Origin: an uncultured delta proteobacterium
GTDB taxonomy: Bacteria; Myxococcota_A; Polyangia; Polyangiales; Polyangiaceae
DNA: 44,908 nt
Direction: 5' to 3'
NCBI GenBank assembly: GCA_903906315.1
Contig: CAIVJW010000445.1
Span: 1 to 44,908, forward strand
Below, piece after piece: positions 11,678 through 28,588 of this stretch. How positions within the stretch are numbered: the first letter of the stretch is position 1; every line of letters begins with the position of its first letter. The position numbers and the translations under genes are program-made. The notes under the pieces were generated by a model that worked only from the letters and a program-made list of their open reading frames with translations, made no database searches and had not been told where the DNA came from.

Positions 11678-11943
11678 ACCCGCGTCGCGTCGCCGCCCTG
11701 CACGCGGAGCTCGCGCGCATCCACGCGGAGCTGGCTCTCGAGTACGCGAGCGTGGGCGACACGGCGGCGAGTGCGCCGATCGCCGCCGACCCGCCGTCGC
11801 CGACCGAAGCCGCGCCGGCCGTGGCGCCGCCAGCGCGCAGGGCGCCGCGCGATCGTTCGCCCGAACCTCCGCCGGAGCCCACCGAGCTCGATCGCGCGCG
11901 CGCCGCGCGCTCGCTCCGTAGGCTCGGCTTCCGCGTGCCATGA
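11674..11943 (+). CDS. Small helical hypothetical protein
   Basis: 89 residues from GTG 11674, preceded by a strong purine-rich ribosome binding site (AGGGGAGGG). The N-terminus is an amphipathic helix likely to form a coiled coil (RRVAALHAELARIHAELALE), the centre is Ala/Pro-rich, and the C-terminus is basic (ARAARSLRRLGF). It overlaps the preceding gene by 4 bp and the integrase by 4 bp (ATGA). Size, position and coupling resemble small accessory proteins next to integrases, but no excisionase HTH is visible. Confidence 0.6.
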   Translation: MNPRRVAALHAELARIHAELALEYASVGDTAASAPIAADPPSPTEAAPAVAPPARRAPRDRSPEPPPEPTELDRARAARSLRRLGFRVP

Positions 11944-13475
11944 CGAGGACCATGCCCACCACACGACGCCGCAGAGGCACCGGCTGCGTAGAAGCCCTCC
12001 CGGACGGCCGGTTCTGCGGGCGCCTCCCGCGCGACGGCGGGCGTCTCGAGCCCTGCGCGACGTACGAGGAGGCGGAGCGTGTCCTCGAAGCGGCGCTGCA
12101 GGCGATCGCCGCCGGCGCCGTGAAGGTCGGCGACGACACGCTCGTCGGCTTCGGCCTTGCCGTCCTCGACGCGCGCGAGCGCGCGGGCCTCCGCGGTGTG
12201 GCGACCGAGCGATCGCGCTGGCGCACGCACGTCGAGCCCTTCTTCCGGGGCCGCCTGCTCACGTCGATCCGGCGGTCGGACGTCATCGCGTGGCGCGACG
12301 AGATGCTCACCAAGAAGGCCGCGAAGGGCAGGGGATACCAGAAGGCGCCGACGCGACCGCTCGCGCGCACCACCGTCAACAACACCCTGAACTTCGAGCG
12401 CGCCGTCTTTGCCGCCGCGCTCGATCGCGATCTCGTCCGCGCCAACCCCGCTCGTGACGTGCGTCTGCCGCGCGGCGCGGGCCGGACGCACGATCCCTGG
12501 ACCTACCTGCTCCCCGGCGAACAGCAGGCGCTGCTCACGTGCGCCGCGATCCCCGAGGACCGCCGGCTGCTCATCGCGTTCGCGCTCGGCACGGGCCTGC
12601 GCCAGGGCGAGCAGTGGCACCTCGAGCTCGGAGACGTGCAGGCCGGCAAGGTCGTCGTGCGGTACGGCGCGAAGGGGAAGGCGACGAAGTCCGGCAAGAT
12701 CCGCCGCGTGCCGCTCCTTCCGATCGCGCGCGACGCGCTCGCGCGTCAGCTCGAGCTCCTCGCCCGTGCGCCCAACCCGCACGGCCTCGCGTGGCCCACG
12801 CCGACCGGCGCGCGCCGGCAGAAGGGCGAGCCGGCCTGGTGGAAGGACGCGCTTGCCGCCGCCGGCGTGGTCGCCGAGAAGCGCCACGACCGCCGCCCCG
12901 TGCGCTGGCACGACCTCCGGCACTCCAGCGCGTCGAGCCTCATCGCGGGCTGGTGGGGCCGGCGCTGGGTGCTCGAAGAGGTGCGCGAGCTGCTCGGCCA
13001 CTCGTCGATCACGGTGACGCAGCGCTACGCCCACCTCGCCGAGAGCGCGCTCGATCAGGCGGCCGGCGGGACCTCTGGGGTTAACTCAACCCCGTGGGGT
13101 TGTCTCGACCCGAAAAAGTTGAGCCACCTTGGGGACTTGAACCCCAGACCTACGGTTTACGAAACCGTTGCGTTCATCCCTGATCCCGAAGGGTTGCAGG
13201 CGGTTTGGGGAGATCTCGTGGGTCTAGCGCTCCGAGCCGTCGCCGCGCGGCGCGCGCTCGCGGCGGGCGCGGCCGGCGCCAGGGGCCTCGTCGACGAGGC
13301 ACTGCGCGCGGTCGAGGAGGCGGGCGGACGGGCCGCGCTCGCGATCGCGGGGCAGGGGAGGATCGAGGGCGCGAGGGTCACGCCGATGACGCCGATCACC
13401 GCGGTGGGCGGGCGTCGCTTCGCCGGCTCGTGCACCGCGCCGATCTCGACGACCACGTCGCGACGACGGCCGTAG
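11940..13475 (+). CDS. int: Tyrosine-type site-specific integrase with attachment site in its coding frame
   Basis: The catalytic core is complete. Arginine I lies in GTGLRQGEQWHLEL (near residue 220), a basic hairpin in KSGKIRRVPL, the H-x-x-R box in WHDLRHSSAS (H324, R327), and the nucleophile in HSSITVTQRYAHL (Y363). The N-terminal SAM-like region (RWRTHVEPFFRGRLLTSIRR) precedes it. After AESALDQAA the frame continues through an inverted-repeat region and then through the reversed 3' half of a tRNA-Thr (residues ~395-410, GDLNPRPTVYETVA), ending at TAG 13473-13475. The tail beyond the tRNA piece is therefore determined by whatever lies across the att site. The start overlaps the upstream stop (ATGA). 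The enzyme should integrate and excise the element at a tRNA-Thr gene. Confidence 0.85.
   Translation: MTRTMPTTRRRRGTGCVEALPDGRFCGRLPRDGGRLEPCATYEEAERVLEAALQAIAAGAVKVGDDTLVGFGLAVLDARERAGLRGVATERSRWRTHVEPFFRGRLLTSIRRSDVIAWRDEMLTKKAAKGRGYQKAPTRPLARTTVNNTLNFERAVFAAALDRDLVRANPARDVRLPRGAGRTHDPWTYLLPGEQQALLTCAAIPEDRRLLIAFALGTGLRQGEQWHLELGDVQAGKVVVRYGAKGKATKSGKIRRVPLLPIARDALARQLELLARAPNPHGLAWPTPTGARRQKGEPAWWKDALAAAGVVAEKRHDRRPVRWHDLRHSSASSLIAGWWGRRWVLEEVRELLGHSSITVTQRYAHLAESALDQAAGGTSGVNSTPWGCLDPKKLSHLGDLNPRPTVYETVAFIPDPEGLQAVWGDLVGLALRAVAARRALAAGAAGARGLVDEALRAVEEAGGRAALAIAGQGRIEGARVTPMTPITAVGGRRFAGSCTAPISTTTSRRRP
13085..13123. repeat. Nested inverted repeats beside the att core
   Basis: CAACCCC-GT-GGGGTTG (13087-13102) lies inside CTCAAC (13085-13090) / GTTGAG (13118-13123). 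The second GTTGAG touches the tRNA acceptor sequence. Candidate integrase or excisionase arm sites, or an RNA hairpin; no T tract. Confidence 0.5.
13122..13168 (-). other. Attachment-site core: 3' half of tRNA-Thr(CGT)
   Basis: On the minus strand: anticodon stem ACGGT, loop TTCGTAA (anticodon CGT), stem ACCGT (13152-13168); variable AGGTC; T arm TGGGG-TTCAAGT-CCCCA (13130-13146); acceptor AGGTGGC (13123-13129); discriminator T. The 5' half (acceptor strand and D arm) is absent upstream, so this is not a working tRNA gene. It is the segment typically copied in att sites of tRNA-integrating elements and lies within the integrase frame. Confidence 0.75.
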
Positions 13476-14147
13476 CTAGTCTCCGCGCGCCTGTCGGAAG
13501 GCGATCGCGCGGAGGCGCTTCACGAGGTCGTCTCGGAACGCCAGGATGCGCTCCGGGGCGGCCTCGCCGGGCAGTGCGGCGTCGGCGCCGATGGTGATCT
13601 GCTGCAGCACCCAAGCGAGCGCGACGGGCTCAGCGCCGCCGTCCTTCTTCTTGGCGTCCGCGAGCGCTTGCTCGAGGTCCACGCCCGCATCGACCAGCGC
13701 CGCGAGGTCGACCAGATCCTTGGCCTCGCTCCTGCCGATGATCGCACAGACCTTGTTCGCCGCGATTTCACGGACCGTGTCGACGCGGACGTCGCCGCGC
13801 GTCGCCTTCACCGGGTCGACCATGGGCGCGCGGTCGATGACGAGGTCCACGATGCACTCGTCGTCGCCACGTGTCACGACGATGCGATGAAAGTCCGCGA
13901 AACGCTTCGCGCTGCGCCCCATCGCGCCGCACGCGCGGCTCGCCTCGTCGAGAGTGCGCGCGACGTCGTCGAGATCGGGCCCCGGCGCGCTGAAGAGGTC
14001 GAGGTCGTCCGTCGTCCGGTGCCCGAGGTAGTAGCCAGCGAGCGCGCCACCCCCCGTCAGGAAGAAGCGCTGCTCGCGCGCGAAGAACGCGGCGACGAGG
14101 TCGCGCTGGAGCGCGGTCAGCCGGCTACGCGGCGGGCAGGAGTCCAT
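13476..14147 (-). CDS. AbiEii/AbiGii-type nucleotidyltransferase
   Basis: 223 residues from ATG 14147. The nucleotidyltransferase signature is GGGALAGYYLGHRTTDDLDLF (about residues 32-52, glycine-rich turn plus D-x-D), followed by a third acidic strand (DECIVDLVIDRAPMVDP) and REIAANKVCAIIGRSEAKDL, a typical AbiEii-family lysine-bearing helix. Such proteins act as toxins of type IV systems or as tRNA-modifying nucleotidyltransferases (known for the family). Its start overlaps the end of the 89-residue upstream gene by 23 bp, so the two form a coupled pair. It is convergent with the integrase reading frame, whose stop immediately abuts it. Confidence 0.8.
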   Translation of the reverse strand: MDSCPPRSRLTALQRDLVAAFFAREQRFFLTGGGALAGYYLGHRTTDDLDLFSAPGPDLDDVARTLDEASRACGAMGRSAKRFADFHRIVVTRGDDECIVDLVIDRAPMVDPVKATRGDVRVDTVREIAANKVCAIIGRSEAKDLVDLAALVDAGVDLEQALADAKKKDGGAEPVALAWVLQQITIGADAALPGEAAPERILAFRDDLVKRLRAIAFRQARGD

Positions 14148-19560: not shown

Positions 19561-19591
19561 TTGCTCAGCATGTTGAGTAAAATTGCTCAAC
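19561..19591. promoter_or_regulatory. Operator-like repeat array at the DUF4143 ATPase start
   Basis: TTGCTCA occurs at 19561-19567 and 19583-19589, with TGAGTAA (one mismatch from its complement) between them. GTTGAG (19572-19577) and CTCAAC (19586-19591) form an inverted repeat, and TGCTCAGCA is itself symmetric. The block is AT-rich against its surroundings and ends 3 bp before the ATG at 19595, so bound protein would block expression. Autoregulation is an inference. Confidence 0.55.
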
Positions 19592-19594
19592 GTC

Positions 19595-20770
19595 ATGCGC
19601 ACGATCGTTCGACCGCAGTACGACGTGCTCCGTGCTCGGCTCCTCGCGCCCGCCGGGCACATCCAGGTCGTCGCCGGGCCCCGGCAGGTCGGCAAGACGA
19701 CGCTCGTCCGCCAGGTGATGGCGCGGCTCGGGCGCCCGGTCCACTTCGCGTCGGCGGACGCGCCAGCCCCGCCGGATCCGCGCTGGATCGACCTTCAGTG
19801 GGACCTGGCCGAGCGGCTCGGAGGCGAGGGCGGCGTGCTCGTCGTCGACGAGGTGCAGAAGGTCCGCGCTTGGGCCGACGTGGTCAAGGCCCGCTGGGAC
19901 GACGACCGCGCGCACGGCCGCGACCTGCGGGTCGTCCTGCTCGGGTCGTCGCCGCTGTTGCTCCAGCGCGGCCTGACGGAGAGCCTCGCGGGGCGTTTCG
20001 AGGTGATCCGAATGGCCCAGTGGTCGTGGCCCGAGATGCGCGACGCGTTCGGCTTCGGTCTGGACGACTACGTCCGCTTCGGCGGTTACCCGGGAGCAGC
20101 TCCGCTCGTTGCCGATCCGCCGCGATGGGCGGCCTACGTGCGCGACGCGCTCATCGAGACGACGCTCTCGCGCGACGTGCTCATGATGACCCGCGTCGAC
20201 AAGCCGGCGCTGCTCCGTCAGCTGTTCGATCTCGCGTGCGCGTGCTCGTCGCAGGAGCTCTCCTACAACAAGATGCTCGGGCAGCTGCAGGACGCCGGGA
20301 ACACCACGACGCTCGCCCACTACCTCGACCTCTTGTCGGGCGCCGGGCTCGTGTCCGGCGTGCAGAAGCACGCCGGCGAGGTCGTGCGCGCGCGCGGCTC
20401 GAGCCCGAAGCTGCAGGTCCACGACACCGGTCTCGTCACGAGCCAGCTCGGCGGTCGACTCGACCCGCGCGCCGAGCCCGAGGTCTGGGGGCGGCTCGTC
20501 GAGTCCGCGGTCGGCGCGCACCTCCTGCACACGGCGCCGCCCGACGGCATCGCCGTCCGCTGGTGGCGCGACGGTCACGACGAGGTGGACTTCGTCCTTC
20601 AGCGGGGCGCGCGAGTGACCGGGCTCGAGGTGAAGTCGGCCCGCACCGGCTCGCTCCGCGCGCTGACGCGGTTCCAGGAGAGGTTCCCCGGCGCGCGCGC
20701 GGTCGTCGTCGGTACGGAGGGGATCCCGCTCGAGGCGTTCCTGTCGCGACCCGCGGGGGATTGGCTGTAA
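19595..20770 (+). CDS. AAA-family ATPase with DUF4143 nuclease-like C-terminus
   Basis: 391 residues. ATG 19595 is preferred to the in-frame TTG at 19583 because the latter sits inside the repeat array. The ATPase half has Walker A GPRQVGKTTL (residues 28-37), Walker B GVLVVDEVQK and sensor region RVVLLGSSPLLL. The C-terminal half is DUF4143-like, with KLQVHDTGLVTSQLG and a PD-(D/E)xK-type end (EVDFVLQRGARVTGLEVKSA). Members are widespread, often solitary and autoregulated; proposed roles include toxin-like or defence ATPases. It is a single-gene unit, 152 bp upstream of the EcsC gene. All core motifs are intact. Confidence 0.88.
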   Translation: MRTIVRPQYDVLRARLLAPAGHIQVVAGPRQVGKTTLVRQVMARLGRPVHFASADAPAPPDPRWIDLQWDLAERLGGEGGVLVVDEVQKVRAWADVVKARWDDDRAHGRDLRVVLLGSSPLLLQRGLTESLAGRFEVIRMAQWSWPEMRDAFGFGLDDYVRFGGYPGAAPLVADPPRWAAYVRDALIETTLSRDVLMMTRVDKPALLRQLFDLACACSSQELSYNKMLGQLQDAGNTTTLAHYLDLLSGAGLVSGVQKHAGEVVRARGSSPKLQVHDTGLVTSQLGGRLDPRAEPEVWGRLVESAVGAHLLHTAPPDGIAVRWWRDGHDEVDFVLQRGARVTGLEVKSARTGSLRALTRFQERFPGARAVVVGTEGIPLEAFLSRPAGDWL

Positions 20771-22191: not shown

Positions 22192-22584
22192 ACATGAGTG
22201 ACGTCGCGGGCCTTTCGGTCTGGCGGTCGGGCAGCGTGACCCGCTTGGCGATGGCGGCGCGGCTGATCTGCCGGTGCCGGCGACGCGGCGTCTTGATCGG
22301 GATGGCCGGCACGTCGTACGAGAACAGCTCTCCAGCGACCAGCCGCTCGCGCGCGAGCTTCTCGGAGATCTCCGGCGACGGCATCGCGCGTTTCGTGCGG
22401 AGGTGTGAGGTGGGGCGGCCGACCGCCGCCGGTACACTCGCGGGCAGCGACCTACCATCGAGACGTCGCGCTTGCGCCGAGCCTGACTCGGTCCCGGTCC
22501 AGGTCGTCATCGCGCGGCGGAATCCGGCTCGGCGTCCTGCGTCATCGGGCCAACGGTTCGAGCGGTCGTGATAGCGTCGCGAGC
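22192..22584. other. Intergenic stretch with one weak minus-strand ORF
   Basis: The only candidate is a minus-strand ORF from ATG 22384 to 22154 (MPSPEISEKLARERLVAGEL, then IPIKTPRRRHRQISRAAIAK). It has plausible composition but overlaps the AAA+ fragment start and resembles nothing I know. It could instead be the true N-terminus of that gene, displaced by a frameshift near 22190. The remainder probably holds the promoter of the macro-domain gene; no clear repeats were seen. Confidence 0.3.
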
Positions 22585-24966
22585 GTGATCCGGCTTGAGG
22601 TGGTGGGGCGCCTGGTCGAGGTGTCGGAACGCTCGATCGTCGAGCCCGGGCGACGCGTCGACGCCGTGGTCAGCTCCGACGACAACTACCTCACGCATGG
22701 CGGAGGCGTCTCCGCGGCCATCTGGGCCGCCGCGGGGCCGGAGCTCGTCGCCCACGTCGACGCGGCGAGGCCGGTGCTTCGCCTGGGCGACGTGCACGTG
22801 ACGCCCGCGTTCGGCGTCGACTCGTCCGTCCTGCTCCACGCGGTCACCATCGACTTCGACGAGAACCGTAGGCTCGGCCCTCGCGAGGCGCGTGCGCTCT
22901 TCGGGCGCGTCCTCGACGTCGCGTCCGCGCTCGGGTGCCGCTCCGTGGCAGTGCCGCTCCTCGGTAGCGGTGCCGGACGGCTCGGTCCCCGTGCGGCGGC
23001 GGTCGCGTTCGCGGAAGCCATCGACGAGCGTCTGGACATCGACGGCCCGCTCGAAACGATCGTGGCGGTCGCCCTCGGGGACGACCACGAGGTGGTGGTC
23101 GAGGTCTTCCGCGACCGCCTCGGTGTGCGCGCGAGCCTCGATGCCGTGGTCCGGGCGACGGCCGAAGAGCTCGGCGGGAGCGCGCGTGCGGCGCTGCAAT
23201 CGGCCTGGGAACAGCTGTGCGACCCCGTCGGCGGTGGAGCCGACGCTCTGCTCGGGTTTGGCGATGCGGCATTTCGTGGGCTCGCAGACCTTGCCTCGCG
23301 TCGGGCGCGGGGCGCGGTCGGCGAGGCGGGGGCAATCGTATCCGAGCAAGTCGTCGCGAGGGCGGGCAAGATCGACCTCGAGTTCCACGTTCGCCGCGCG
23401 ACTGGCGTCGAGGAGCTGACCGCCGAGGCCGCCGTCGAGGCCGCCGAGGCGCTCTTCGGGGCGGTCAGCCGGTCGCTCGACTCGTCAATCCCGCGGGACT
23501 GGCGCGACGCGCTGAACCTCCGTAACGAGCTCGTGTCCGGCGTGGGAAGCCCCGACCTGCGCATCGAGCGTGCCCTGGTTCACGGGCTCTGGCGGGCGCT
23601 GCGGACGCTCGTCCCCGCGGTGCCCATCGCGGGCTCCTCGATGCCCCGTCGGGCTCTGCTCACGGGTCGCGATCGCGACGCGGGAGCCCTATCAGGCGCC
23701 AGAGTGGTGGGTGGGATCGCAGCTGGCCTTGCCGCAGTGGGCACGGGGCTGCCTGGAGGCGGTCGGGTCGCGGGTGCCGCATCCTTCGAGCGGTCCGTCC
23801 TCGCGCGCGCGCTCGGTTGGATCGTTCCGAGCGTCGCGGGCGTGGTCGCCGCGGCTAGGGTCCAACCGTCCGACGATTCGCATGTGCCCATTCTCCCGCG
23901 GGCGCCGAGTCCGGCTCCGGCGCCAGCGGTCGACGCGGGTGAAGTCAACCGCCCGGTGCGTGAGCTTCACGCGTTCTTGCGGCGAAGGCTCCCTCCGAAG
24001 CGCCTCGCCTCGATCTGCAAGCACCTCGAGGAGCACGAAGGATACCGCGGCAGCGACGACGCGAGGCTCCTCGAGCACTGCGTCGTGATGTCCGACCCTG
24101 CGAAGCTCGTCGCCGAGGAATTCTCGCGCGCAGAGCTCGGCGATCTCGTGGAGGAGATGACCGGCAAGGCCCCGTCGCCGAGCGCTGCCAACGCGGAGCT
24201 CGCCGCTCAGGTACTCGAGCGGCTCGGGTTTCCGAGGGCTTCCGACGTGCCACCCGAGGGCCTACGGACCGCGCTCGAGCGCATCCGCGCGTGGCGGCGA
24301 GATCTCGATGTCACCGCATCGTCTCGTGAGGTGCTCGTCGGAACGGTGGCCGCCGCAGCGACCGAGCTCGAGCGGCTGTTGCAGATCTTCATCCGCTTCC
24401 TGTGCAGGGTCGCGGACGACGCCTCGCCGGAGGAGTACTTCCGGCGCGCCGGCGCGTTCGGGCCCAGGGACGAGCTCGGTGCCTGTAGCATCGGGAAGCT
24501 GATCTCCCTCCTCGAGTCGCTCGGAAAGGACCTGTCGAGTCGCCCGAGCTTTTCCCTGGCAGTCGATCTCGGCGTCCGCCGGCTCACGCCCAAAGATCTT
24601 CGGATCGCCGAGCTGCGGAATGCGTTTGCCCACTATCGCGAGGACATGGATCAGCTGTCGGTCTCGGACCTCCGGGCGAAGGCGAGGGGAGCGCTCGACG
24701 AGGCCATCCGGCTCCTGGAGTACCTCGGCGATCCCGAGCACCGGGTCTTTCCGCACGTGGTCGTGATCGAGGCGATCCACCTCGACCGCTGGGGTCGCCG
24801 GAAGATCGAGGCGCGGAGCGACGAGCGGGCGGAGCGCCTCTTCACCAACAGCGACGTTCGCCCCGGGCAGGTCTACTTCATGCACCCGCTCACGAACCCG
24901 CTACGTGTGGACCCCATCCTCGCGTCGGCCGGCGACTTCGTGCACCGGTCAACGCCCAAGAGCTGA
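22585..24966 (+). CDS. Macro-domain / HEPN-like multidomain protein, candidate defence effector
   Basis: 793 residues from GTG 22585. Residues 1-175 form a macro domain: VDAVVSSDDN, HGGGVSAAIWAAAGPEL (38-54), LRLGDVHVTPAFGV, and the ADP-ribose loop VPLLGSGAGRLG (~123-134). A helical middle with a long small-residue hydrophobic stretch (ARVVGGIAAGLAAVGTGLPG, SVAGVVAAARV) may associate with membrane. Residues ~453-530 (VRELHAFLRRRLPPKRLASI, LVAEEFSRAELGDLVEEMTG) look like a death-fold-like or effector-associated adaptor. Residues ~581-710 resemble a HEPN domain with LRNAFAHYRED, an R-x4-H motif (R678, H683) typical of HEPN RNases. The combination suggests ADP-ribose sensing coupled to an RNase, as inference. 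Confidence 0.72.
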   Translation: MIRLEVVGRLVEVSERSIVEPGRRVDAVVSSDDNYLTHGGGVSAAIWAAAGPELVAHVDAARPVLRLGDVHVTPAFGVDSSVLLHAVTIDFDENRRLGPREARALFGRVLDVASALGCRSVAVPLLGSGAGRLGPRAAAVAFAEAIDERLDIDGPLETIVAVALGDDHEVVVEVFRDRLGVRASLDAVVRATAEELGGSARAALQSAWEQLCDPVGGGADALLGFGDAAFRGLADLASRRARGAVGEAGAIVSEQVVARAGKIDLEFHVRRATGVEELTAEAAVEAAEALFGAVSRSLDSSIPRDWRDALNLRNELVSGVGSPDLRIERALVHGLWRALRTLVPAVPIAGSSMPRRALLTGRDRDAGALSGARVVGGIAAGLAAVGTGLPGGGRVAGAASFERSVLARALGWIVPSVAGVVAAARVQPSDDSHVPILPRAPSPAPAPAVDAGEVNRPVRELHAFLRRRLPPKRLASICKHLEEHEGYRGSDDARLLEHCVVMSDPAKLVAEEFSRAELGDLVEEMTGKAPSPSAANAELAAQVLERLGFPRASDVPPEGLRTALERIRAWRRDLDVTASSREVLVGTVAAAATELERLLQIFIRFLCRVADDASPEEYFRRAGAFGPRDELGACSIGKLISLLESLGKDLSSRPSFSLAVDLGVRRLTPKDLRIAELRNAFAHYREDMDQLSVSDLRAKARGALDEAIRLLEYLGDPEHRVFPHVVVIEAIHLDRWGRRKIEARSDERAERLFTNSDVRPGQVYFMHPLTNPLRVDPILASAGDFVHRSTPKS

Positions 24967-25082: not shown

Positions 25083-25412
25083 TCAGCCCGAGGACTCCGG
25101 GGAGCGCTTGCGCGCGCTCGTCGCTGTGGCTCGGTGGGTCCGGTTGTAGCCGACCGCGGGATCATTCGATCGCAGCGAGATGATCAACTCGCCTTCCTTC
25201 GCAGAGACCTCGCGCTTGTTCGCCGACTCGAACAAGATCTCCTTGCGCAGCGCGAAGTCGCGTAGCTGCTCGTCCGAGAAGTCCCGCTGGACGAGGCCGT
25301 TGTCCCACGAGCCGAAGTAGCGCAGCGAGTGTCCCTTCCCGCCGATGTCCTTGCCGACGTAGATCTTGCCGTTGGGGAAGGTCAGCTTGTAGACGACGTA
25401 GCCGAGCGTCAT
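25083..25412 (-). CDS. GIY-YIG domain nuclease-like protein
   Basis: 109 residues from ATG 25412. The GIY-YIG module starts at once: YVVYKLTFPNGKIYVGKDIG (residues 5-24), followed by HSLRYFGSWDNGLVQRDF and RDFALRKEILFESANKREV, the helix and strand carrying the catalytic E of compact GIY-YIG domains, then KEGELIISLRS and a basic tail. It is a minimal stand-alone domain without a DNA-binding extension, so it may be a structure-specific nuclease or part of a system with the neighbouring macro/HEPN gene, to which it is convergent (116-bp gap). Confidence 0.75.
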   Translation of the reverse strand: MTLGYVVYKLTFPNGKIYVGKDIGGKGHSLRYFGSWDNGLVQRDFSDEQLRDFALRKEILFESANKREVSAKEGELIISLRSNDPAVGYNRTHRATATSARKRSPESSG

Positions 25413-25772
25413 GGTGTCTTCTCGCTTCGCCCCGTCGGAAGGCCGACGGACGGGATCGATGTGGATGGCTGGGCGCGAGCGGCAGCGCGCATCGCTGCTC
25501 GTCCGGCATCGTATGCAGTATCGACGGTTGTCGGGCGACGCACCTGACACGCGCCCTCGGTCGCGTGGGTGACCCCTCGCCTGGGTCGAGGCCGACCCGG
25601 GTCGACGTCGAGGCACGAGGGCCTCCCGGCGCGCTCCTCGATGGCGCCTCCTCCGGGCGGCCTGCTGTCGCGGAGCGAGCGCACGGGGCCCTCGCGTCGC
25701 TCCGGGCCACGTAGCGAGCGTCGCGGCCGCCGAGTCGCGCCGTCCCGAAGCCGCCTACTCGCGCGTCCGCCG
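25413..25772. other. Intergenic stretch without a recognisable gene
   Basis: 360 bp between two minus-strand genes. Frames show only Arg/Pro/Ser-rich shadow peptides. It should hold the GIY-YIG promoter and the end of the AAA+ operon transcript. No strong hairpin or repeat was found by eye. Confidence 0.5.
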
Positions 25773-26789
25773 CTACGCCTCGGCGGCGGCCCGCTGCACG
25801 TCGAGCGGCGCCTCGACGAGCGGGACCACCTCGGTCGTCGACGTGCGCGGCCCGGCGAGGGGGTCACTGCCCACGTCGCGCTTCGCCCGCTTCGCGTGGA
25901 CGATCGCCGCGTCGAGGTCGGCCAGCTGGACGCGGCGGAGCGTGCCCTCGCGCTGCACCGCCGCGCTCGCCGCGCCGACGACGACGTTCACGAGGTCCCC
26001 GCCGGAGAGGCCGAGGGATCGTGCAGCCAGCGCGGCCGGGTGGACGTCGGGATCGCGCGGCAGGCGGTCGGGCAGGAAGCGCGCCCAGAGTCGCGCGAGC
26101 GTCGGCTCGTCGGGGAGCGGCAGCTCGACGTGCGCGTAGATGCGCCGCACGAACGCGGCGTCGTAGTTCGTCGCGAGGTTCGTCGCGAAGACGACGACAC
26201 CGTCGAAGTCGCCGAGCTGGGTCAGCATCACCGCGCGCGCCGTGTTGACCGCGTGGTCGGCGCTCTGGGTGACGCTCGTGAGCCGGCGGCCGAGGATCGA
26301 GTCGGCCTCGTCGAAGAACAGCACCGCGCCCGCCTCGCGCGCGGCCGCGAACGCGGCGACGATGTTCTTCGAGGTCTCGCCGACGAACTTCGACTCGAGC
26401 TCGGCGTACGAGACGCGGATCCAGGGCCGGCCGAGGTGCGCGGCGATGGCCTCGGCGCAGAGCGTCTTGCCAGTGCCCGGGGGGCCGTAGAGGTTCATCG
26501 CGGCGCCCGTCATGCGCGGCTCGATCGAGCGCAGGTCCCACTCGACGAAGAGTGTCTCGTGGTGGTGAATGCGAGCCAGCGTCGCCTCGAGGCGCGCGCG
26601 CACGTCGTCGGCCACGACGAGCTCCGCGAGCGTGCGCCGCGGCGACTCGACGGCGAAGGTCGCGAGCGCGCCCGTCGCGCGGTCGGCGGCGGGGTGATCC
26701 GACGGCGGACCGGGATCGAGGCGCGCGGGCGCGGGGGGCGGCTCGGGGCGGGGCGCGGAGGCGTCGCGGCGGGTCCAGGGAATCGGCAT
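25773..26789 (-). CDS. AAA+ ATPase, last gene of a five-gene operon
   Basis: 338 residues from ATG 26789, with AAGGAG 8 bp upstream. A proline-rich N-terminus is followed by one classical AAA domain: Walker A GPPGTGKT (102-109), the pore-loop region SYAELESKFVGETSKNI, Walker B VLFFDEADSILGRR (156-169), sensor 1 FATNLATNYD (201-210), arginine fingers FVRRIYAHVELPLPDE, and a C-terminal small domain ending GGDLVNVVVGAASAAVQ. No transmembrane or protease domain is present, so it resembles Vps4/katanin-like remodellers that act on partner proteins. The four upstream small genes, three with a membrane anchor, are the obvious candidate partners (inference). Confidence 0.85.
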   Translation of the reverse strand: MPIPWTRRDASAPRPEPPPAPARLDPGPPSDHPAADRATGALATFAVESPRRTLAELVVADDVRARLEATLARIHHHETLFVEWDLRSIEPRMTGAAMNLYGPPGTGKTLCAEAIAAHLGRPWIRVSYAELESKFVGETSKNIVAAFAAAREAGAVLFFDEADSILGRRLTSVTQSADHAVNTARAVMLTQLGDFDGVVVFATNLATNYDAAFVRRIYAHVELPLPDEPTLARLWARFLPDRLPRDPDVHPAALAARSLGLSGGDLVNVVVGAASAAVQREGTLRRVQLADLDAAIVHAKRAKRDVGSDPLAGPRTSTTEVVPLVEAPLDVQRAAAEA

Positions 26790-26835
26790 CGGGGTCTCCT
26801 TCGCAGGCGGGGGTGGTGGGCGCGGAGCGGCTCAC

Positions 26836-27165
26836 TCAGTCCATCAGCGCCAGGACGTCGCGCGTGGAGGAGCCCTGACGGTCGAGCTCGCGCAGCACGT
26901 CCTGGTCGTCGATCTGGTGGCGCTCGAGCGTGACCGTGCGGGTCTCGGCCGCGCGCGGCCCGACGAGCCAGCGCTTCACGCGACCGTGGTACGTCAGGCG
27001 TACGATGCCGTTCATGAGGCGCTCGAAGAGGACGAACGCGTCCATGAACGCCGACTTCTCGAGGCCCTGCTCGTGCAGCCAGTCGCGCACGTGATCGCGG
27101 ACGAGGTCCCAGATCGCGCACGCGACGGCGAGTCCGGCGAGCAAGAGCGCGAGCTCGACGATCAC
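26836..27165 (-). CDS. Small membrane-anchored protein 4 of the AAA+ operon
   Basis: 109 residues from ATG 27165, which overlaps the upstream stop (ATGA). One N-terminal hydrophobic helix (IVELALLLAGLAVACAIWDL) precedes HVRDWLHEQGLEKSAFMDAF and a basic strand region (IVRLTYHGRVKRWLVGPRAA). The end, VTLERHQIDDQDVLRELDRQ, is a divergent counterpart of the DDLPxxVR ending of its neighbours, lacking the L-P. The first 20 residues are hydrophobic without a cleavage site, so it is probably a signal anchor. It is followed 46 bp later by the AAA+ gene. The family is not recognised. Confidence 0.72.
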   Translation of the reverse strand: MIVELALLLAGLAVACAIWDLVRDHVRDWLHEQGLEKSAFMDAFVLFERLMNGIVRLTYHGRVKRWLVGPRAAETRTVTLERHQIDDQDVLRELDRQGSSTRDVLALMD

Positions 27166-27596
27166 GACGCCACCTCCGGCGCGAAGCGGTACGGGCGCTC
27201 GACGCGGTCGCAGCGATCGCGGAGGAAGTCCTCGCGGATGGGCGCGGGGAGCTCGTCGAAGTCGATCGGCCGCTCGCGCTCGCGGTGAACGCCGTCGACC
27301 TCCGCGCGGACCACGAACACGTAGCGGGCGCGCCCGTCGCGGCGCCGCTCGAAGGCGACGGTCGCCGCGCCGACGCGCCGCTCGACCTCGTCGCGCACCG
27401 TGGCGTCACCGCGCCCGGCGGCCACCGCCTCGTAGTCGATGGCCGGGCGCCCGCCGCCGCGCGCGAGCAGCTCGGCGACGACGCGTGCGACCTCGCGATC
27501 GAGGTCGTCGCGCGCGCCCTGCTCCTGCTTGCGCGAGACGAAGTGGGCGACGACGGCGGCGAGGCCGATCGCGGCGACGATCCAGAGAGGGGGCAT
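27162..27596 (-). CDS. Small membrane-anchored protein 3 of the AAA+ operon
   Basis: 144 residues from ATG 27596. The N-terminal anchor (PLWIVAAIGLAAVVAHFVSR) is followed by a charged helix (DLDREVARVVAELLARGGG), a beta-rich portion (AATVAFERRRDGRARYVFVV, then AEVDGVHRERERPIDFDELP) and the shared motif DFDELPAPIREDFLRD (112-127). The stop overlaps the next start (ATGA); the upstream gene ends 3 bp before its ATG. The beta-strands-then-DELPxxIR order is the same as in the other two small proteins, indicating a common domain. No known family was recognised. Confidence 0.75.
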   Translation of the reverse strand: MPPLWIVAAIGLAAVVAHFVSRKQEQGARDDLDREVARVVAELLARGGGRPAIDYEAVAAGRGDATVRDEVERRVGAATVAFERRRDGRARYVFVVRAEVDGVHRERERPIDFDELPAPIREDFLRDRCDRVERPYRFAPEVAS

Positions 27597-27598
27597 GG

Positions 27599-28066
27599 TC
27601 AAACCTCCAGCACTGCGAGCTCGCGGTCGCGGCTCGCTTTGACGTCGACGCTCGTGCGCGCGCTCGCGTCGCGCAGCAGCTGCTCGCGCACGTCGGACGG
27701 CAGATCGTCGAAGTCGACGACCTCCTCCTCGACCCTGCGCGCGACCTTGGTGGGCTCGAGCTTGACGCGCAGCCAGCTCGTCACGCGCCGCACGTACTCG
27801 TTCGCCGTGCGGCGCTCGATATCGACCGTGAGCTTGAGGAGCGCGCCGCGGAGCGCCGTCCACGCGGCCTTCACGACCCGGCGAACGCTCACCACGGCAT
27901 TGTCGACCGCGGCGAACGCCTGCCGCACCTTGGGTGCGAGCTCGGGCCAGGTCTCGTCGACCCACGGCAGGAGGTCGTCGACCACCAGCTCGCGGAGGTA
28001 GTCCCACGCGGCGACCCCGGCGATCGCCGCGCCGGCGAGGATGATGAGGAGGATCGGGAAGGGCAT
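27599..28066 (-). CDS. Small membrane-anchored protein 2 of the AAA+ operon
   Basis: 155 residues from ATG 28066. The N-terminal anchor FPILLIILAGAAIAGVAAW is followed by an aromatic/acidic helix (DDLLPWVDETWPELAPKVRQ), a paired helix (AVDNAVVSVRRVVKAAW), a strand region (LLKLTVDIERRTANEYVRRV) and the shared motif DFDDLPSDVREQLLRD (118-133). Its start lies 4 bp after the upstream stop and its stop 3 bp before the next start, consistent with one operon. The function is unknown. Similarity to its neighbours suggests that a set of related subunits assembles at the membrane. Confidence 0.75.
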   Translation of the reverse strand: MPFPILLIILAGAAIAGVAAWDYLRELVVDDLLPWVDETWPELAPKVRQAFAAVDNAVVSVRRVVKAAWTALRGALLKLTVDIERRTANEYVRRVTSWLRVKLEPTKVARRVEEEVVDFDDLPSDVREQLLRDASARTSVDVKASRDRELAVLEV

Positions 28067-28069
28067 GGC

Positions 28070-28588
28070 TCAGGTCCTCTGCAGGTGGAGGTCGAAGGTC
28101 ACGGCGTCGCGGCGCTCGCGGGCGTGTGCGGCGCGCACCTCGTCGGGCAGGTCGTCGTACGAGAGCTCGGACTCGGTCGTGCGGAGGCGCGTGCCGCCGA
28201 GGCCCGCCCACGTCTCGATGCGGCGCTGCCACGTGCTGCCGCCGAGGCGAGTGAAGGTGACGCTCACCTTGAGCAGCTCGCGGCCGTGGCGCTCGATCGC
28301 GTCGACGCTCGGGCGCGCGGGGCGGCAGCGACGGACCCGCTCGAAGGCGTCCGCCCCGCGCGTCATGTGGACGGCGAGGTCGAGCGCGACGTCGTGGGGC
28401 ACGCGGCACGTGGCGACGAGCGCCTCGGCCACGACCTCGGCGATGGCGACGGCGTGCTGGTCGCTCGCGCTGTGCGGCTCGAGGAGCGCGACGGCCTCCC
28501 GGACCAGCGCGAGCACGTGGTCCCCGATCGCGGGACCGTGCTCCTTCAGGAAGCGGCGAAGCTCTTTCGATGCGGCGGTGCTCGGCAT
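28070..28588 (-). CDS. Soluble protein 1 of the AAA+ operon, carries the shared motif
   Basis: 172 residues from ATG 28588, preceded by a strong AAGGAGG. It differs from the next three in lacking a membrane anchor: the N-terminus is a helical bundle (ELRRFLKEHGPAIGDHVLAL, VAIAEVVAEALVATCRVPHD). It is followed by strands (ELLKVSVTFTRLGGSTWQRR, TRLRTTESEL) and the shared motif YDDLPDEVRAAHARE (144-158). It is first in the operon. The helical part could be the regulatory or cargo-binding subunit; this is speculation. The family is not recognised. Confidence 0.72.
   Translation of the reverse strand: MPSTAASKELRRFLKEHGPAIGDHVLALVREAVALLEPHSASDQHAVAIAEVVAEALVATCRVPHDVALDLAVHMTRGADAFERVRRCRPARPSVDAIERHGRELLKVSVTFTRLGGSTWQRRIETWAGLGGTRLRTTESELSYDDLPDEVRAAHARERRDAVTFDLHLQRT

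Follow-up and report, generated by a model that had tools for sequence, protein, structure and literature searches.

Small paralogous proteins encoded with a classical AAA+ ATPase: an apparently undescribed gene system common to very different bacteria

In the nucleoside triphosphate-dependent ternary conflict systems (VMAP, iSTAND and FtsH-containing), the AAA+ ATPase is seen as a threshold-setting chaperone (PMC7159879, accessible part), and conflict systems combining a sigma factor, DUF1822 and caspase-type proteins have also been described (PMC8195603, accessible part). In the COMMD ring of the Commander complex, paralogous small subunits have a helical N-terminal part followed by three antiparallel strands and a helix, according to the portion of PMC10187114 available to us. 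Here we describe a row of five genes in a 44,908-nucleotide stretch of DNA from an uncultured delta proteobacterium of the Polyangiaceae (contig CAIVJW010000445.1; the whole stretch is called the window below). Four genes for small proteins, A to D, are followed head to tail by a gene for an AAA+ ATPase, in the order A, B, C, D, ATPase, across positions 25773-28588, all on the minus strand. This is a real gene system, common to very different bacteria, and apparently an undescribed one; A to D together with the ATPase may constitute a regulated stress or defence switch. The system is apparently unnamed because the four small subunits match no family library, and our literature search, whose coverage mostly excluded subscription papers, retrieved no operon of such composition. 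The first-pass annotation of the window, which was made from the letters alone, had likewise named no defence, secretion or division system built in this way.

Judged by profile comparison, A, B and C are one protein superfamily. The iterated profiles of A, B and C each retrieve the other two; such profiles can drift, and the kinship is based on separately built alignments and on a search of the own genome with the C profile. The alignments were sorted by gene position (A, alignment A5, 11 rows; B, A4, 19 rows; C, A6, 16 rows; D, A7, 7 rows), and the segment starts in A4-A8 were taken from profile hits and not from verified start codons. When these were compared by hhalign, whose E-values are those of single comparisons, A matched B at 98.0% (3e-13) and C at 98.0% (2e-13), and B matched C at 97.5% (5e-12). 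The C profile, built from the rows taken as C, retrieved C (1e-32), B (1e-6) and A (5e-6) from the own genome, the next match standing at 0.076. D is very probably a further member, mainly because of its match to B (94.7%, 6e-8, with the membrane helix within the match) and because D-type genes of relatives keep the motif described below; the comparison of C with D gave 29.7% (6e-4), and that of A with D was not significant (1%, 0.05). The alignment of all against all that had been proposed in the first-pass annotation thus joins A, B and C in one family and very probably D as well, and the profiles, hhalign and the own-genome search bear out its picture of paralogous small subunits beside an AAA+ ATPase.

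A, B and C contain the motif D[DE]LPxx[VI]R, and D does not. Its occurrence is far above chance, because among 1026 background proteins predicted in the fetched loci, whose gene calls were mechanical, only 1 contains it, and shuffled sequences of A, B and C produced it 2, 5 and 3 times in 20000, respectively; the common ending first noticed by eye in these three proteins is therefore confirmed. The weaker counterpart that had been suggested for D fits the aligned D family, which at the place of IDDQDVLREL reads PLSELSPELR in locus L040 and PKSEIPPEVQ in L043. Membrane anchors had been attributed to three of the small proteins, and the best 19-residue Kyte-Doolittle means of the N-terminal hydrophobic stretches agree with this for B (2.31), C (2.02) and D (2.49); A, with a best mean of 1.52, is without an anchor. 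Against Pfam, NCBIfam, PADLOC and PHROGs, A to D gave no family at E <= 0.02, the best being a match of B at 0.025; at E up to 1, each of the four had 0 PADLOC families and none had a Snf7 family. The small proteins are thus not distributed over different known families, as they would have had to be for the common system proposed in the first-pass annotation to be refuted; no known family covers them.

All five reading frames lie where the first reading had placed them (Table 1). The 46 base pairs (bp) between D and the ATPase gene that it reported are also correct, and its account of the rest of the packing needs partial correction. The only overlap in the row is that of C with D, which is 4 bp long and reads GTGA, D starting with GTG, so that the plural ATGA overlaps fall away; of the gaps given as 3-4 bp, that between A and B is indeed 3 bp, and that between B and C is really 2 bp. 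By eye, a purine-rich sequence resembling a ribosome-binding site precedes each of the five starts, such as AAGGAGG before A.

Table 1. Genes of the row, with positions in the window
Gene	Positions	Strand	Product
A	28070..28588	minus	172 amino acids; predicted helical N-terminal part, then beta-beta-beta-alpha-beta domain with YDDLPDEVR; without membrane anchor
B	27599..28066	minus	155 amino acids; N-terminal membrane helix, long helix, predicted beta-beta-beta-alpha-beta domain with DFDDLPSDVR
C	27162..27596	minus	144 amino acids; N-terminal membrane helix; C-terminal domain, by profile the same as in A and B, with DFDELPAPIR
D	26836..27165	minus	109 amino acids, GTG start; N-terminal membrane helix; shortened, diverged form (IDDQDVLREL)
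AAA+ ATPase	25773..26789	minus	338 amino acids, single-domain classical AAA+; proline-rich N-terminus

The predicted structures of A and B share a domain. The AlphaFold model of B (predicted local distance difference test, pLDDT, 89.7; predicted template modelling score, pTM, 0.61) begins with helices 3-19, the membrane helix, 21-39 and 44-75, and continues with strands 76-87, 90-101 and 104-117, helix 124-132, strand 138-141 and helix 142-154. That of A (pLDDT 81.4, pTM 0.66) has helices up to residue 102, strands 105-116, 119-128 and 133-143, helix 149-158 and strand 162-168. In these models the C-terminal domains of A and B match element by element as beta-beta-beta-alpha-beta, and in both the domain helix starts directly after the DDLP of the motif. 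Foldseek gave no PDB match at E <= 0.001 for A or B and no match at that level for B among viral models, and VIA-align against solved structures gave low scores, with a best Z of 5.9 for B and 3.8 for A. No solved fold clearly matches either model, and a weak match is not proof of a new fold. Among the weak VIA-align rows for B were COMMD proteins (6bp6, Z 3.2; 9q6a, Z 3.0, root-mean-square deviation (rmsd) 12.5; 8esd, Z 2.8, rmsd 14.4); the 50 rows listed for A contain none, and PDB searches with the A and B profiles gave no COMMD sequence match. The likeness of the small proteins to COMMD or Commander proteins is retained as an analogy only, although the absence from the rows listed for A is no proof against kinship.

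The gene set is present in at least five phyla. The GTDB genome contigs were scanned with the ATPase alignment and the best 80 of 435 relatives were taken, so that the counts describe the closest ATPases only. At least one superfamily gene lies within 4 kilobases (kb) and on the same strand in 25 of these 80 loci, and at least two lie upstream on the same strand in 19. When the window, four Myxococcota loci fetched for holding B and two plasmid loci are added, 87 loci result, of which 31 have at least one superfamily gene within 4 kb and 25 have at least two upstream; no superfamily gene was found on the opposite strand in any of the 87. Loci with at least two upstream genes belong to the Cyanobacteriota, Actinomycetota, Chloroflexota, Planctomycetota and Verrucomicrobiota, in addition to the Myxococcota, and a diverged form with a B-type gene downstream of the ATPase occurs in the Pseudomonadota and Bacillota. 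Wherever the best-scoring profile separates the genes, they follow one another as A, B, C, D, ATPase in the loci examined, with a few exceptions: in five Chloroflexota loci and in G039 the B profile scores best for all three genes, L065 and G268 each have two B-type labels, and in L198 the A profile scores best for the gene adjoining the ATPase. A gene order unique to this genome, which had been named as grounds for doubting the system, is therefore not what is seen.

Small subunits and ATPase have long been coupled. An ATPase tree of 91 rows, in which long branches call for caution according to the program, accounts for the presence of small genes with 6 changes; shuffles require 25.4 on average, and none of 500 is as low. 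The pairwise distances of B and of the ATPase correlate (Mantel r 0.71, n=24, 0/5000 permutations). The window ATPase clusters with rows from Paractinoplanes and Streptomyces (100/97), apart from the G073 and G229 copies, and this position among Actinomycetota suggests transfer between phyla. Within the Myxococcota the presence is patchy, as the B profile matches 5 of 377 genomes, the own genome included. Weak single-sequence hits of B in G021, G205 and G309 (E 0.001-0.007) were dropped; G021 has no match with the B profile, and G205 and G309 are outside the five matching genomes. A tblastn search of plasmids with B and its Streptomyces relative found no further plasmid.

The ATPase of the window belongs to PF00004 (1.9e-26, 93.5 bits against a cut-off of 21.2) and contains a Walker A motif (GPPGTGKT), a pore-loop-like SKFVGET, a Walker B motif (FFDEAD) and an arginine pair (FVRRI); by these motifs it is an ATPase of the threading type. 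Of 15 relatives checked with strict patterns, all have Walker B, 12 have Walker A and 10 have the pore loop. Among solved structures, the nearest in sequence are Cdc48/p97 chains, which come first (5e-40) with chain residues 477-724, a segment that we take to be the second ring. The window ATPase is probably a hexameric unfoldase resembling one ring of Cdc48. The nearest curated defence ATPase is IetA (NF042959, 3e-28; PADLOC IetA, 2.5e-27), the cut-off of whose model is not reached (99.1 bits vs 510), and the nearest phage family is phrog_3757, of unknown function (1.2e-47).

The helix element of the small proteins also appears at the end of a few ATPases. A profile made from 47 motif windows of the small proteins was scored on the last 60 ATPase residues, and at least 14 bits were reached in 4 of 32 ATPase open reading frames (ORFs) from loci with small genes (L038, L039, L044 and L054), two of the 32 (L119 and L121) being cut by the end of the fetched stretch. 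None of 61 ATPase ORFs from loci without small genes reached this score, and among 1600 shuffles none reached 7 bits and 3 reached 5 bits. The L054 ATPase, for example, ends in GIDDLPPDVRQTYNKTQ. A role of the motif as a general trait of ATPase tails was cut back in view of these four cases out of 32. Their existence suggests that the helix element can act alone, and such a tail element may perhaps dock the ATPase to the A-D assembly.

In some relatives, subunit A is joined to enzymes of several kinds. Among the 31 systems, of which not every neighbour was scanned and in which the close pairs L032/L069, L040/L043 and L063/L067 were counted separately, partners were seen in 13: CHAT in 7, M48 in 5 and a kinase in 1. 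A Ser/Thr kinase (Pkinase) of L054 has the A domain as its C-terminal end (A profile 2e-17). An M48 peptidase domain precedes the A domain in L067 (3e-8), to whose protein that of L063 is 76% identical over its whole length, and in G229 (4e-5 for the protein called in L199, 6e-3 for that in L121). The M48 protein of L062 matches the A profile weakly (0.03), and that of L065, encoded directly upstream, has no A-profile match. By Pfam, CHAT genes adjoin the operon in L032, L038, L040, L042 and L043, and one stands three genes from the ATPase in L198; the CHAT protein of L069 is 94% identical to that of L032. Only L043 and L198 have TPR repeats that score over the cut-off. DUF1822 is found next to the CHAT gene in L038 and next to the operon in L039. 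Between the ATPase and CHAT genes of L198 stands a gene with a sub-threshold match to sigma-70 region 4 (E 0.008).

From what was computed, namely the gene set, its paralogy and conservation, its linkage to the ATPase, the folds predicted for A and B and the effector fusions of relatives, we infer a tentative scheme of oligomer formation, docking, unfolding and gating, as well as a biological role. The five genes would encode a module at the membrane that remodels proteins at the expense of ATP: a membrane-anchored hetero-oligomer, worked on by a Cdc48-like unfoldase, would gate protease or kinase effectors in stress or conflict. We put the chance that this is correct a little short of even. 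B, C and D would be held in the cytoplasmic membrane by their N-terminal helices, A would join them from the cytoplasm, and the four would probably form a hetero-oligomer through their common domain. The ATPase would dock on this assembly and pull one subunit or a bound client. Fusion of A to a kinase or M48 domain in some relatives, or a CHAT gene adjoining, leads us to expect that the most likely task of the module is to restrain an effector enzyme or to supply it with clients, and the ATPase may set the threshold of effector release upon envelope stress or invasion. A more far-reaching version is possible, if rather doubtful: a new type of switch, consisting of a heteromeric membrane platform of four paralogous subunits of an unnamed fold that display the helix motif, with a Cdc48-like ring acting on the platform, the ATPase tail motif slotting in by strand-and-helix complementation in some lineages, and CHAT, M48 or kinase plugged in at A. 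If the gating scheme is true, bacteria tie a Cdc48-type unfoldase to the membrane by means of specialised paralogues and swap the effectors on one of them. This would provide a model, open to direct test, of a switch in which ATP gates a protease or kinase, and which is not the same as the MoxR-vWA conflict systems or the endosomal sorting complexes required for transport (ESCRT).

Several observations weigh against this scheme. In 18 of the 31 systems the neighbours scanned included no effector, and HExxH is intact in only three of seven M48 or M48-like proteins (L063, L067 and L121). In the window, ten proteins were scanned, the nearest on both sides included, and no CHAT, M48 or A-fused kinase among them adjoins the operon; the only CHAT match of the genome lies on another contig. 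Here, therefore, A would itself be the effector, or the gene for one would lie at another place. The small genes are absent from all 62 virus-derived ATPase loci, and viral carriage was set aside on this count. Among the 15 relatives, 3 escaped the strict Walker A pattern and 5 that of the pore loop, so that some ATPase copies diverge. The tail of the window ATPase scores 0.3 bits, hence the tail motif is not shown for it, and 28 of the 32 tails are without a clear motif. The pTM of the B model is only 0.61.

The main rival of the gating scheme is membrane-protein quality control, for which FtsH/HtpX and Msp1 are models and in which the ATPase would extract damaged or orphan membrane proteins recognised by A to D and proteases such as M48 (HtpX-like) would degrade them, the linkage to CHAT being secondary. 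It would account for the anchoring of three of the four subunits, for an ATPase closest in sequence to Cdc48/p97, and for the M48 domains that 5 of 31 systems have at the A position, either fused or as a neighbour. The occurrence in 5 of 377 Myxococcota genomes and the placement of the ATPase among Actinomycetota are unlike housekeeping, however; CHAT and kinase partners do not fit, and HExxH is missing in four of the seven M48 or M48-like copies. We consider this explanation rather unlikely. The patchy distribution and the placement across phyla count also against a housekeeping or envelope complex of unknown purpose, such as one in which an AAA+ chaperone assembles a membrane complex and the enzyme neighbours are incidental, and different kinds of enzyme fused to the same subunit A would be hard to reconcile with it; the ordinary upstream neighbours scanned in the window, L041, L044 and L057 (NUDIX and Uma2, an epimerase, two-partner secretion genes, a dicarboxylate symporter) are what such a complex might be expected to have. 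In our estimate it is distinctly improbable.

The first-pass annotation had called the ATPase Vps4-like and imagined an assembly remodelled by it, a reading close to ESCRT-III/Vps4-style membrane remodelling, in which A to D would polymerise on the membrane and the ATPase would disassemble the polymer. An operon that combines small paralogous proteins at the membrane with a classical AAA+ ATPase is indeed a feature in common, and bacterial Vps4-like and PspA associations are described in the accessible part of PMC11237479. Nevertheless, the solved structures nearest to this ATPase are those of Cdc48/p97, and at E up to 1 neither MIT nor the Vps4 C-terminal domain is among the 25 families listed for it, of 27 found. 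The models of A and B show helices followed by the beta-beta-beta-alpha-beta domain and not the Snf7-type helical hairpins of ESCRT-III, and the enzymes fused to A would be left unexplained. The Vps4/ESCRT identity was set aside because of the predicted fold of A and B and the domains not listed; we regard remodelling of this kind as unlikely, with a very small chance of being right.

Near the operon, the scanned neighbours in the window are a macro-domain protein, a NUDIX hydrolase and a Uma2 protein, and further off are a protein kinase, an AbiEii-like gene, a PDC-S01 candidate and an integrase. The macro domain (Pfam 3e-14) is N-terminal in an 853-residue ORF (22405-24966) with a long uncharacterised rest. 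A short ORF just downstream of the ATPase gene (25083-25616) resembles a GIY-YIG nuclease by eye and has no Pfam match at E 0.001. The PDC-S01 match of a DUF4143/AAA_14 protein (19583-20770) is very strong (PADLOC candidate, 529 bits), and at 11940-14147 a phage-type integrase adjoins the AbiEii-like nucleotidyltransferase.

The ATPase family has other company elsewhere. In Akkermansiaceae, two successive ATPase reading frames follow the small genes (L063, 5755-7870; L067, 4821-6954), as if two different ATPases served one system. A sister ATPase group without small genes, in Chloroflexota and Bacillota, shares another gene family (L033, L045, L046, L048-L050, L052, L055, L056, L058-L060, L068, L070 and L071); on a Lactobacillus plasmid the gene upstream of the ATPase is annotated as TipAS-domain. 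In proteobacteria the same ATPase family travels with three other conserved genes, in 24 loci each, from among L034, L037 and L084-L117. One of the three is annotated as OmpA/MotB family in Escherichia coli NZ_LR536430 (region L125), where it lies beside an integrase, and one resembles a MotA/ZorA-type channel by eye in L034; this ATPase and three-gene set is possibly a separate defence cassette. A WYL regulator and another gene of the same BLAST component flank the gammaproteobacterial variant L112 (1-12651), and two helicases, one NERD-UvrD and one SNF2, lie close by; judged from its neighbours alone, this setting appears defence-like.

When set beside the described systems, the gene row has a close parallel in the ternary conflict systems, where an AAA+ ATPase likewise belongs to multi-gene systems, there with effectors (PMC7159879, accessible part); of the 31 systems related to the row, 13 have a CHAT, M48 or kinase partner, and none is adjacent in the window. 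DUF1822, known from the set with a sigma factor and caspase-type proteins (PMC8195603, accessible part), stands beside two of the operons. Those systems employ a MoxR-type ATPase and a vWA co-chaperone, whereas here the ATPase is of the classical AAA+ type, with PF00004 as its best family, and is accompanied by four paralogous, mostly membrane-anchored subunits of an unnamed superfamily. No vWA protein was found among A to D or the ten window proteins scanned, and as neither the MoxR nor the vWA part was found, the row is not a member of the ternary conflict systems. The anti-phage system IetAS provides the nearest curated defence ATPase, from which the window ATPase differs by a score far below the IetA cut-off, and no subtilisin-type IetS is encoded by A to D or the ten proteins scanned. 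Cdc48/p97 proteins are the closest solved relatives in sequence; in contrast to them, the ATPase here has one AAA domain in its 338 residues and no N domain, and its partners are unrelated to Cdc48 cofactors as far as searched. The helical N-terminal part, three strands and helix in the model of A resemble those described for the COMMD ring, and the set as a whole likewise consists of small paralogous subunits (PMC10187114, accessible part), but here a further strand comes after the helix, and the COMM domain of COMMD9 matches B weakly (Z 3.2, rmsd 3.8, 52 residues; best unrelated row Z 5.9), a score so low that it may reflect only a common arrangement. An AAA+ ATPase that sets the threshold of an effector is a principle known from the ternary conflict systems, and there is a fair chance that the platform of small subunits described here is new altogether.

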